From positions 1 to 7,144 of the forward strand of contig JACZRJ010000021.1 in assembly GCA_022574795.1 (NCBI GenBank): a stretch of 7,144 bases of DNA, written 5' to 3'. The DNA is from Patescibacteria group bacterium. Lineage in GTDB: Bacteria > Patescibacteriota > Andersenbacteria > UBA10190. Every line of letters starts with the position of its first letter. The first letter of the stretch is position 1. Under the pieces are notes generated by a model, which made no database searches, was not told where the DNA came from, and saw only the letters and a list, made by a program, of their open reading frames with translations. Made by a program: the position numbers and the translations under genes. This document shows positions 2,223-7,054 of this stretch, piece after piece.

Positions 2223-3200
2223 ATGAAAAAGTTGAAAGTTCTGTGCCTGTCTTTGCTGTTGTTGATCTACATTCCGATCTTTGATGCTGTAGCTCAAGCG
2301 GTCGATGAGCAAGAACAAGGTCAGCAAGAAGCGGGCGAGCTCGCGAGAGTTGCCAAAGACGATTCACAACTGGCGAGCATTACTCTTGATCCTGGGCTTT
2401 CAGATAGCTGGGAGCAACGTCTGCAAGAAGCCTTTAAGTTGGTGATACCTGCCAAAGAGGATCCGCGGCTGCTGAAAATTAGTTTTAAGACTAAACCCTT
2501 CGATCGCTGGGATCGACAAGTATCGGAGGAGGAACTATGCGACATGGTGATGGCAGATCGCAGGTGGGACGGTGATGGTAACCGGATAAACATGGTGAAG
2601 GTACTTCAGTCTCAGCTGGGTACGTTTACCCAGGTACGTTCTCACCGGCGATACTCGATTGATCCAGAGGCTCACTACCGAGATGCAGGGCACCCTCAGC
2701 ATCTATTTTTGAGTCGGAGAGGCTTCGGGCCTTGGCATGACATGGTGCAATTTCCCGGCGGGAAATGGGTACGAGGATACCCCAACTCAGTCAACATCCT
2801 GAGGGTTGCAACAATCGATGAAGAGACGTTCCTCTTCACCCGTCAACACATAGTGCGGTGGCTGGGTGCGGGAAAATTCGAATCAGTCGTTCAGATTGGC
2901 AGCCATGATGCGTCACTGCGCCCTTACCTGGCGATAAATCGCGATTCGGCTGACGGTAGTTTTGTTGGTAGATTCTACGCTGTGGCGACCTCAAAGTGGT
3001 CACATTTCGGAGGCCTACTCGAATGTCGTCTCGGAGCCTGGCGTTTCTACCGTTACACTGGGCGGCACAAACATTGGGTGGAAGCAGCGGTTGAAAAGGA
3101 TGGAGTTGTAACACTCGGTTTGTTCAAGGGCTTTGGCGAAAATAAACGCCAGACCAAAGTCAGTTTCAACCCAGCCACCGGAGAGTTCAAGGACCTATAA
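2223..3200 (+). CDS. Secreted protein of unknown function with signal peptide
   Basis: The 325-residue product begins with a textbook Sec signal peptide: MKKLKV, a Leu-rich core (7-20), and a cleavage region AVAQA around residue 26. There is no lipobox. The mature N-terminus is Glu/Gln-rich and possibly helical (27-75). Residues 116-120 read DGDGN, similar to a calcium-loop fragment but not enough to claim EF-hand or dockerin. The rest (about 130-325) is rich in Trp, Phe and Tyr, with alternating beta-like segments that could form a beta-sheet or propeller-like fold. Only two Cys (106 and 268) remain in the mature part. I recognise no family or catalytic motif. It is a self-contained unit: its own near-consensus promoter, a structured leader, a clear Shine-Dalgarno and an intrinsic terminator about 70 bases after TAA. 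It is likely periplasmic or extracellular. Its organisation differs from its neighbours, which may mean separate acquisition or stronger regulated expression. Confidence 0.85.
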   Translation: MKKLKVLCLSLLLLIYIPIFDAVAQAVDEQEQGQQEAGELARVAKDDSQLASITLDPGLSDSWEQRLQEAFKLVIPAKEDPRLLKISFKTKPFDRWDRQVSEEELCDMVMADRRWDGDGNRINMVKVLQSQLGTFTQVRSHRRYSIDPEAHYRDAGHPQHLFLSRRGFGPWHDMVQFPGGKWVRGYPNSVNILRVATIDEETFLFTRQHIVRWLGAGKFESVVQIGSHDASLRPYLAINRDSADGSFVGRFYAVATSKWSHFGGLLECRLGAWRFYRYTGRHKHWVEAAVEKDGVVTLGLFKGFGENKRQTKVSFNPATGEFKDL

Positions 3201-3269
3201 CAATCGTTCATTTCTAAAGAACGTACCTTAGGTAACGTGAGCGCCTATTCTACTCACCTTACCGCTATC

Positions 3270-3301
3270 AGCCCCGTGTCAGATTGACCGGGGCTTTTTT
3301 T
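3270..3301 (+). terminator. Intrinsic terminator after the secreted-protein gene
   Basis: AGCCCCG (3270-3276) pairs with CGGGGCT (3289-3295), extended inside by GTC/GAC (3278-3280 with 3286-3288), and is followed by seven T (3295-3301). A weaker stem (CGTTC 3205-3209 with GAACG 3219-3223) lies between the stop codon and the terminator. Confidence 0.85.
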
Positions 3302-3363
3302 GATTCTTGCCGAAAAGAGTGAGCTCGCTGTTCAGCGAGCCACGGTTTTTCGAGCAAGAATCA
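3301..3363. repeat. Long 63-base imperfect hairpin
   Basis: TGATTCTTGC pairs with GCAAGAATCA (10 bp). A small internal loop separates this from GAAAA/TTTTC (5 bp), and the top is GTG/CAC plus GCTCGCT-GTTC-AGCGAGC. It begins on the last T of the upstream terminator's T tract and abuts the next hairpin. It is symmetric enough to fold on either strand; no T tract follows on either side in the right orientation, so it is not itself a terminator. Confidence 0.6.
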
Positions 3364-3509
3364 ACCCAGCGCCGGCAGGTGCTGGGTACTGATACCTCTT
3401 GTCCAATATGCTGAGTAAACGAAACTTTACGTCTAAGGGTACGGCTAGAATGATCAACTCCGCATCGTTTAGATGCGGCAGGCCAGCGGGCCAAGTCTTG
3501 CCTGCGTGG

Positions 3510-3545
3510 CTGAGCCACAGCGAAACCCCGTCTCAACGGGGCGGA
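3510..3545 (+). repeat. Dispersed hairpin repeat, copy A
   Basis: The core 3524-3545 (22 bases) is identical to the reverse complement of 7062-7083. It contains the hairpin CCCCG-TCTCAA-CGGGG followed by CGGA. The similarity extends upstream through CTGAGC(C)ACA and CGAA, with small indels, for about 36 bases. In copy A a second stem, GTGGC-TGA-GCCAC (3506-3518), precedes the core hairpin. Conservation of the loop bases as well as the stem suggests the sequence itself is recognised. Confidence 0.75.
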
Positions 3546-3579
3546 AGCAATCCTTACTGTATGGTATGAGTAAGGCTCC

Positions 3580-3601
3580 AGCCCTTGGGCTCCATTTTTT
3601 T
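3580..3601 (+). terminator. Intrinsic terminator 33 bases before the nucleotidyltransferase start
   Basis: AGCCC-TT-GGGCT (effectively a 4-bp stem with a CTTG tetraloop), then CCA and seven T (3595-3601). The stem is short, but the T tract is strong. It would end the structured RNA; its closeness to ATG 3635 also fits an attenuator. Confidence 0.5.
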
Positions 3602-3628
3602 GAGTGAAGGGGTTTGGTACCGTACTAT
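3600..3628 (+). promoter_or_regulatory. Promoter for the nucleotidyltransferase gene, probably leaderless
   Basis: TTGAGT (3600-3605), 17 bases, TACTAT (3623-3628): four of six matches in each box at optimal spacing. The -10 ends six bases before ATG 3635, so the transcript would begin at or next to the start codon. The -35 overlaps the end of the upstream T tract. Confidence 0.5.
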
Positions 3629-3634
3629 GTAGGT

Positions 3635-4324
3635 ATGAAGACGGTTGTTTTAGTGGCGGGGAAAGGGTCTCGCATGGCCAAGGACTATGAGGGTCCCAAG
3701 CACCTCTTACCGGTGGCAGGCAAACCCTTACTTGAGCACGTGCTGGATGGGCTGCCCAGCCAAGTGGACGGCATTGTGTTAGTTGTTGGCGGGCCACATG
3801 AGCAGGCCATTCGAGAACATTTCAAGGGTGGAGAGTATAACGGTTTGCCCATCGAGTTTGTGGTTCAGGAAGAGCAGCTGGGATTAGCGCATGCGTTTTG
3901 GACTGCCAAAGACGTTATCTCGGGAAGATGGTTGGGGATGATTGGTGACGATATTTTAGCTGAGGGCGACTTGGACAAACTGCTTGAGCACAAGATAGCT
4001 TTACTGGCGGCCAAAACAGATCATCCCGAAAACTTTGGGGTGTTGGTTGTTGACGATGAGGGATATTTAGTTCGATCCGTTGAAAAGCCCCAGGAATTTA
4101 TTTCTGATTTAGTCTGGACTGGCTTCATGGTGATGGATGAGCAGTTCATGCGGATTGAGGTGGCCCCCTCCCCTCGGGGAGAGTATGAGACACCGGATGT
4201 TTGGACCAAGCTGATCAACGAGCACGGGGCCAAAATAAAAGTGGTGGAGGCAGATTTTTGGTTACCGGTGAATGACAGAGAACAATTAGAAGAGGCGGCC
4301 CAGGTGCTTAGTGAACGAGGCTAG
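3635..4324 (+). CDS. Sugar-1-phosphate nucleotidyltransferase (NTP_transferase family)
   Basis: The 229-residue cytoplasmic enzyme would transfer a nucleotidyl group from an NTP to a sugar-1-phosphate, giving a nucleotide sugar and pyrophosphate. It is essentially one Rossmann-like catalytic domain. The signature loop is at 7-14 (AGKGSRM), the PK...LPVAGKP motif at 21-31, the nucleobase-contact stretch QEEQLGLAHA at 78-87, the metal-binding acidic region GDD at 104-106, ENFGVL at 132-137, VEKP at 149-152, GEYETPD at 182-188 and LPVNDREQL at 210-218. No left-handed beta-helix acetyltransferase domain follows, so it is not a full GlmU. The substrate (glucose-, GlcNAc- or another sugar-1-phosphate; UTP or dTTP) cannot be told. 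I chose ATG 3635: a TTG at 3614 is in frame but would place the -10 hexamer inside the gene. It converges on ugd, which consumes a nucleotide sugar, so a shared envelope-sugar role is plausible. Confidence 0.88.
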   Translation: MKTVVLVAGKGSRMAKDYEGPKHLLPVAGKPLLEHVLDGLPSQVDGIVLVVGGPHEQAIREHFKGGEYNGLPIEFVVQEEQLGLAHAFWTAKDVISGRWLGMIGDDILAEGDLDKLLEHKIALLAAKTDHPENFGVLVVDDEGYLVRSVEKPQEFISDLVWTGFMVMDEQFMRIEVAPSPRGEYETPDVWTKLINEHGAKIKVVEADFWLPVNDREQLEEAAQVLSERG

Positions 4325-7024: not shown

Positions 7025-7054
7025 ATGAGGGAAGGGAGGTATCCCTTCCCTCAT
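7025..7054. repeat. Perfect 13-bp palindrome after the MFS gene
   Basis: ATGAGGGAAGGGA (7025-7037), loop GGTA, TCCCTTCCCTCAT (7042-7054), beginning two bases after the TGA stop. One arm is all purine apart from its T, the other nearly all pyrimidine. No T tract follows, so it is not a standard intrinsic terminator; it may protect the 3' end or act as a rho-type or palindromic repeat element. Confidence 0.6.

Follow-up and report, generated by a model that had tools for sequence, protein, structure and literature searches.

Elements of the IS200/IS605 type carry a hairpin at the element end and insert 3' of a short target without target duplication. According to passages of PMC6006769, TnpA recognizes the structures at the ends of its elements, REPs are hairpins preceded on the 5' side, at 0-2 nt from the foot, by the tetranucleotide GTAG or GTGG, and long REPs have a bulge of 1-3 nt between two stems. 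Two super-families of tagged palindromes, GTAG and CGTC, are described in excerpts of PMC3733652, where tagged palindromes are reported so far mainly from Proteobacteria, G-T pairs are frequent in the GTAG stems, and the CGTC repeats seem to be without a dedicated transposase. REP copy numbers of more than a hundred are given in a passage of PMC2817692. Two further systems involve stem-loops or palindromes: group IIC introns integrate at a DNA stem-loop (excerpt of PMC10190682), and TIGR-Tas systems comprise arrays of variable palindromes in Patescibacteria (excerpt of PMC12045711).

Here we analyze a window of 7,144 nucleotides from a Patescibacteria group bacterium (assembly GCA_022574795.1, contig JACZRJ010000021.1). 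The interval 3301-3601 of this window had been predicted, from its letters and open reading frames, to be almost entirely made of hairpins and to represent either a dedicated structured RNA or a composite of palindromic elements. In the literature on palindromes of Patescibacteria, CPR and Andersenbacteria, with subscription journals and preprints outside the scope, no such repeats were described, and Patescibacteria are not mentioned in passages of the RepRanger survey (PMC12306157), which is recent.

Results

The window corresponds to contig C19 of its own genome (G000; 783 kb in 171 contigs, about 80% complete), and the gap is located between an ORF without Pfam match (2223-3200) and a nucleotidyltransferase gene (3635-4324). 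When homologous loci were sought via the latter gene, one relative was obtained, a Latescibacteria record with 60% identity. A protein search with the product of this gene gave 560 hits; among the 120 listed, the few with a named organism are three from Candidatus Andersenbacteria and one each from the Parcubacteria group, Dehalococcoidia, and a plain "bacterium", which makes a Patescibacterium close to Andersenbacteria the most likely host. Elsewhere in the window, the ORFs 1318-1686 and 1723-1917, both without Pfam match, are close neighbors on the same strand with different reading frames, and a single gene with an interruption may account for both.

The RNA fold of 3301-3601 reached -129.8 kcal/mol, compared with -96.6 +/- 5.5 kcal/mol for 100 dinucleotide-preserving shuffles, none of which was as stable (0/100; z -6.06), and the opposite strand gave a fold z of -4.57. 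These values confirm the unusual hairpin density that had been predicted for the interval; its extent was overstated by the words "almost entirely", as 188 of the 301 bases are paired in the minimum-energy fold (Table 1). The weakest part of the hairpin string is 3388-3448. The true left edge of the interval was placed at 3300, adjoining the T tract of a terminator-like stem (3270-3276/3289-3295) that passes the strict terminator test defined below with a 7-bp stem and six T in eight. At the right edge, the seven T predicted to follow the last stem are present at 3595-3601, where a terminator-like site ends; the minimum-energy fold pairs the stretch 3574-3591 of this site with other bases. Altogether, three terminator-like sites were computed in 3150-3720 vs. 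0.7 expected.

A search of the whole window against Rfam at E<=10 returned seven weak matches, all below the gathering score (best 26.7 bits vs. 47), and the best match inside 3301-3601 reached 21.5 bits against a gathering score of 63. ARAGORN detected neither a tRNA nor a tmRNA in the window. Because all seven Rfam matches are weak and none is near its threshold, RNase P RNA, tmRNA and SRP RNA are unsupported. The Rfam check that the original prediction had proposed thus yielded no family at its gathering score; motifs of these three RNAs had not been found by eye either. The small bacterial SRP RNA (RF00169, Rfam) was found in 0/39 genomes of the phylum (G000-G038) vs. 11/14 control genomes, and the SRP RNA of G000-G038 may be divergent or of another type.

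Table 1. Modules of the window and helices of the minimum-energy fold of 3301-3601
Feature	Position	Strand	Basis or remark
Terminator-like stem 3270-3276/3289-3295 and T tract, behind ORF 2223-3200	3270..3301	+	Sequence
Alpha, imperfect hairpin	3300..3364	+	R2 match 68.1 bits; covariation in 21 copies
Beta 1, perfect-stem hairpin right after alpha	3364..3387	+	10 bp in fold
Remnant read as second, damaged alpha	3388..3457	+	Interpretation inferred; same 3' arm and CTGAG junction in L024, L031, L036, L041
Beta 2, type CTCCGCATC...GATGCGG	3458..3478	+	Uninterrupted homologues in L024, L031 (two), L041
GC-rich palindromic insert	3479..3544	+	Interrupts beta/AGCAATCC junction
Resumed unit tail AAGCAATCCTTACTG	3545..3575	+	7-bp hairpin 3552-3575
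Weak terminator-like stem with seven T, 34 bases before next ORF	3574..3601	+	
Further GC-rich palindrome copy near contig end	7062..7083	-	22/22 identical
Helix, 10 + 7 + 3 + 7 bp	3301-3363		Minimum-energy fold
Helix, 4 bp	3391-3403		Minimum-energy fold
Helix, 5 bp	3415-3430		Minimum-energy fold
Helix, 10 bp	3431-3440 with 3581-3590		Minimum-energy fold
Helix, 4 bp	3443-3446 with 3513-3516		Minimum-energy fold
Helix, 7 bp	3460-3478		Minimum-energy fold
Helix, 4 + 6 bp	3482-3510		Minimum-energy fold
Helix, 6 bp	3526-3541		Minimum-energy fold
Two further helices, 2 bp each			Minimum-energy fold

BLAST of 3200-3640 against the own genome gave 64 rows at E<=10. Of these, 31 also pass E<=0.01, including the place of the query itself, which is matched on either strand and accounts for two rows. 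Module 3296-3388 has a 94% identical copy at C54, and copies of module 3456-3556 with 80-85% identity are found at C54, C22, and C63. The GC-rich palindrome around 3510-3546 recurs in about twenty copies in the own genome, which is the only one where this second family was detected; with a GC-rich array of another contig as query, 76 rows were obtained at E<=10, the query included. Alpha-beta units stand in tandem in several arrays, and other alphas carry a different beta downstream.

The junctions between the modules were compared with their counterparts elsewhere in the genome. A beta of the type CTCCGCAtC...GATGcGG continues into AGCAA at four places, two of them in L031 and one each in L024 and L041. 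In the window, the beta at 3458-3478 is followed by the GC-rich insert 3479-3544, with hairpins at 3482-3510, 3506-3518 (alternative) and 3526-3541, after which AAGCAATCC resumes, and the same insert starts at that point of beta in L022 (C54), L024 (C63, second beta) and L023 (C22). Likewise, the 3' arm of alpha is broken at one point (ATTTTG, then CTGAG) in L031, L036, and L041 and unbroken at nine listed places. These junctions suggest that GC-rich palindromes entered both beta and the alpha 3' arm, giving the hairpin string of the window. The stretch 3388-3457 looks like a damaged alpha of the CTGAG-interrupted kind, in which a spacer is followed by a GC-poorer insert from CTGAG (3411-3448) and by AATGATCAA at 3449-3457, read as the remains of the alpha 3' arm. 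In order, the predicted features of the window are accordingly a terminator followed by alpha and beta, then a damaged alpha and a second beta, each carrying an insert, and finally another hairpin and the weak terminator-like stem.

Since the modules recur separately and interrupt each other, the interval is a composite and not one RNA gene. Among the two options of the original prediction, it is thus the composite of palindromic elements that is supported, its modules being dispersed over many places of the genome. A dedicated structured RNA spanning the whole interval finds no support, as the matches in the own genome span at most 107 of its bases and the modules occur in both orientations.

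GC-rich palindromes are also located within or at the ends of ORFs, namely L028:2537-4360 (TraG/DUF87-like, with the copy behind the zinc-finger match), L036:2404-3033 (HrcA-like), and L040:1156-2499 (FG-GAP), which recalls the Rickettsia palindromic elements in genes. An ORF matching PF05635 (23S rRNA-intervening-sequence protein family; L033:1269-1736, minus strand) lies beside GC-rich palindromes. In the window, a 13-bp perfect hairpin at 7026-7054 (ATGAGGGAAGGGA...TCCCTTCCCTCAT) is found directly behind the MFS gene, before the GC-rich palindrome and the contig end. At L046:1501-1760 (G000:C123), an alpha-beta unit and an N run are followed by a near-copy of the same terminator and then by a different alpha, which reflects a tandem duplication or else the joining of two strain variants during scaffolding.

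Alpha is 61-66 nt long. From the foot inwards, its outer stem of ~11 bp is separated by a bulge on the 3' side from a core stem of 6 bp, which typically reads CAAAAT/ATTTTG. An internal loop lies between this core and a helix of 3 bp, and after a bulge of a single base the hairpin closes with an inner stem of 7 bp and a small loop. In an alignment of 21 copies, which was fitted to the structure and whose counts lean towards it, 95.4% of 566 cells are paired, 21 of the 27 pairs show changes on both sides, and two-sided changes number 125 vs. 34.6 +/- 4.9 in shuffles. None of 500 shuffles reached any of the five covariation measures, and pairing fell to 38-50% when the partners were slid by 1-3 columns. 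A MAFFT alignment of 12 rows gave the same covariation picture. The outer and inner stems drift and the core is constant; the outer arms pair but differ between copies, and shared terminal inverted repeats of the MITE type were not found.

The 21-row alignment was cut at E<=2e-9, which excludes reverse-strand matches of the palindrome; absent from it are G4_C23 and G5_C19, which are weaker copies, and the G006 copy, which was found later. For the covariance model R2, the window, C54b, C109, and G3_C11 were omitted from 16 rows, among which C22 and C54a had never been; all six are present in the 21-row alignment.

The internal loop is kept in 21/21 rows, as are the bulges. It is a 2x2 loop without a standard pair in 18 rows and a 2x3 loop in the remaining three, the window included, where one G might form a pair with T or C. 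Its letters are GA/GA in 11 rows, AA/GC in four, GA/AA in two, TA/AC in one, and GA/GGT or GA/GGC in three. That the loop is kept although its letters vary argues that the imperfection of the hairpin matters.

Selection on an RNA strand is expected to tolerate G-U and not A-C pairs. The 566 alpha cells comprise 534 Watson-Crick, 6 G-T, 13 A-C, and 13 other combinations. As a control, 109 pairs were parsed from nine tRNAs at loci of G000, G003, G005, and G024, fewer than nine full cloverleaves would give, with some partly or not read; they comprise 102 Watson-Crick, 7 G-U, and no A-C pairs. The G-U share is lower in alpha than in the tRNA stems (p 0.002, a rough value, as the copies are related and the cells not independent), and the excess of A-C over G-T in alpha is not significant (p 0.17, likewise rough for related copies). 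Covariation had been proposed as a check for a structured RNA: in the first 65 bases it is indeed strong, but the kinds of change speak less for an RNA of that strand than for a DNA hairpin. The palindrome looks to be kept about equally for both strands, as a DNA hairpin would be.

To determine the distribution of alpha, a first covariance model (R1) was built from three copies. It gave 22 matches at E<=10 in the own genome, including reverse-strand matches of the palindrome and fragments, as well as matches in two other genera. A marginal R1 match in G023 (E 0.067) was discounted, having no core and no R2 match at E<=0.01. With R2, a scan of the phylum at E<=0.01 with strict filters detected alpha in 4/379 genomes, all in the family of the window. 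A fuller scan of the class found it in 5/13 genomes (G000, G003, G004, G005, and G006), which represent five genera of one family; it was absent there from the other five genomes of this family and from three of the neighboring family. G006 was missed by the strict phylum scan and found by the class scan, and single weak copies beyond the class may therefore also be missed. Full-length copies were tabulated for G000 (ten, one with an insert), G003 (four), G004 (eight), G005 (one), and G006 (one). The neighboring genes on either strand are unrelated by Pfam and include S6, S9, RmlD, CAP, STAS, TrmB, peptidyl-tRNA hydrolase, GNAT, RecG, and others. No match to 3250-3640 of the window was found in phage and plasmid collections, and viral contigs contained no exact match of one degenerate alpha-core pattern, which is narrow and would miss many true alphas.

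Placement was assessed for 23 copies, with the G006 copy left out. At least three T in the four bases before alpha are present in 20/23 copies, compared with 7.5% among 20,000 positions drawn at random from the same loci. A strict terminator (stem score of at least 16 and at least five T in eight) is located upstream of 14/23 copies vs. 15/3555 control positions (Fisher p 1e-25), and on the other side of alpha in 1/23 copies (G5_C19). Near-misses of the strict test are C85, G4_C20, and C123, with stem scores of 15.8, 15.2, and 13.6, respectively, and six or seven T. G3_C13 and G4_C25a fail it and show what look by eye like longer-looped stems; G4_C25b also fails, an IS intervening. No upstream terminator is visible at C26, at C54b, which lies inside an array, or at G5_C19. 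The G006 copy, found after the rule had been set, has a terminator-like stem and six T upstream.

Three copies of G003 (C17, C12, and C13) are identical at 61-62 of 63 positions and are located at unrelated loci. Their upstream flanks of 20 bases (skipping the four next to alpha) agree at 5-6 positions and their downstream flanks of 20 bases at 3-9. C12 and C13 are 100% identical over 67 bases, with no identity beyond except for a short palindrome further downstream. As the near-identity ends at alpha, the unit copied in this genome consists of alpha and a few T, and we infer from the copies that alpha inserts. Neither a target-site duplication nor a shared flank around the alpha copies was apparent by eye.

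We also searched for candidate transposases. No Y1_Tnp was found in the own genome (G000, ~80% complete). Y1 genes are present in 19/39 relatives, and in 4/5 alpha-bearing genomes of the family vs. 2/5 without alpha, which is a weak association. Among 23 Y1 loci scanned out of 30 retrieved, alpha occurs at one, in G004. The IS200-like Y1 ORF at this locus (L067:1041-1493, G004:C25) ends five bases before the alpha match and is flanked by two near-identical hairpins; upstream of the first hairpin, a terminator-like stem, a T tract, and ATTA fit the missing part of the alpha 5' arm. The Y1 element (L067:780-1561) is thus best read as a separate IS inserted into the 5' arm of alpha and not as alpha's own transposase. 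REP/RAYT proper was rejected, as G000 has no Y1 and the only alpha-linked Y1 gene has its own flanking hairpins. From the pattern in the family genomes, a Y1 protein may act in trans.

Discussion

On balance, we favor the view that dispersed hairpin repeats make up the interval as a mosaic and that alpha, with 64-65 nt and abutting a predicted terminator, is likely a tiny non-autonomous mobile element. It would be transferred as single-stranded DNA folded into the hairpin, with insertion on the 3' side of T-runs. A trans-acting transposase of the HUH/Y1 type (IS200/REP-like) would recognize the imperfect hairpin and use the T-run as target tag, and the GC-rich palindromes would have invaded later, into beta and the alpha 3' arm. 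With a T-run as target, the position of alpha behind terminators would be accounted for, as would its orientation. More tentatively, with the odds somewhat against it, alpha may found a third super-family next to the GTAG and CGTC palindromes of bacteria: a mobile DNA hairpin tagged by a T-run, with intrinsic terminators as landing sites and an obligatory internal loop with freely drifting stems, spread in the reduced genomes of Patescibacteria without an adjacent transposase gene.

Alternatively, alpha could be a structured RNA element 3' of transcripts that is reached by terminator read-through and serves in protein binding or in the control of RNA stability or termination. The strong covariation together with the conserved core and internal loop would agree with this, as would the orientation relative to the terminator, which is constant in nearly all copies having one; conserved core and constant orientation also fit a functional element at transcript ends, and in the window five T come after the inner stem, which resembles a terminator on either strand. 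We nevertheless regard such an element as unlikely, because G-T is rarer than A-C (6 vs. 13 of 566 cells) and also falls below its share in tRNA stems, alpha lies behind the T tract and not before it, and near-identical copies occur at unrelated loci with different neighbors. The palindromes might also spread and diversify without any transposase if, at stalled replication forks, template switching and hairpin-primed repair copied one arm onto the other, and the missing Y1 transposase in the own genome, the chimeric arrays and the arm-wise changes without G-T intermediates would suit this. Arm correction, however, should erase the bulges and internal loop that 21/21 rows retain, and it leaves the T-run in 20/23 copies and the identical distant copies unexplained, so that we consider this process quite improbable as an explanation of alpha.

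Movement by the group IIC intron machinery, which integrates at DNA stem-loops, would place alpha in the same kind of site, behind a stem-loop, and reverse transcriptase genes are present in three of the five alpha-bearing genomes (G003, G004, G006). PF00078 was not found in G000 and G005, both with alpha, and is present in G001 and G002 without it; alpha occurs at 0/12 RT loci and no Rfam intron family in the window, all of which makes this machinery a very improbable vehicle. The arrays could finally be stem-loop guide arrays of the TIGR-Tas type, which passages of PMC12045711 describe from these bacteria with variable but consistently palindromic stems. The interior of alpha is paired in all rows and leaves no two unpaired spacers of 8-12 nt, and the guide arrays were set aside on structure alone; in addition, the copies stand singly behind unrelated genes, and no Tas (Nop-domain) gene was named in the Pfam scans of the alpha neighbors. 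We give this last reading almost no credence.

If the mobile DNA hairpin is confirmed, a terminator-landing family in genomes of ~1 Mb shows how reduced genomes gather non-coding structure, and suggests a safe-site strategy, as insertion at the end of a transcription unit harms no gene. It also carries a warning for searches for new RNAs, since intergenic hairpins can owe strong covariation to the DNA level; G-U pairs, almost absent here, offer a simple check for this.

Among the known systems, alpha resembles the GTAG REPs and their RAYTs in having an imperfect, bulged hairpin with a short tag 5' of its foot, and in its place behind genes, with some copies in genes and with dimers and arrays, as far as these are described in excerpts of PMC3733652 and PMC6006769. 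It differs from them in its tag, which is a T-run and not GTAG/GTGG, in its length of about 64 nt vs. 20-40 nt, in being almost without G-T pairs, in having no cognate transposase gene beside it, and in copy number, with about ten full copies in the own genome vs. the more than a hundred stated in the cited passage of PMC2817692. With the CGTC REPs and the Rickettsia palindromic elements it shares that dispersed palindromes lack a dedicated transposase and lie partly in ORFs (passages of PMC3733652); in contrast to these, alpha has no CGTC tag, contains an internal loop, and sits behind terminators. A terminal hairpin and, as proposed for alpha, insertion 3' of a short target are common to alpha and to IS200/IS605 with its small derivatives, but alpha has no internal transposase gene, and in G003 a single hairpin suffices as the copied unit. 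Group IIC introns likewise have a DNA stem-loop as their integration place, whereas alpha is not a ribozyme and shows no association with reverse transcriptase genes. Finally, arrays of variable palindromes in Patescibacteria are shared with TIGR-Tas, from which alpha is set apart by the lack of unpaired dual spacers and by being dispersed rather than located beside one gene.
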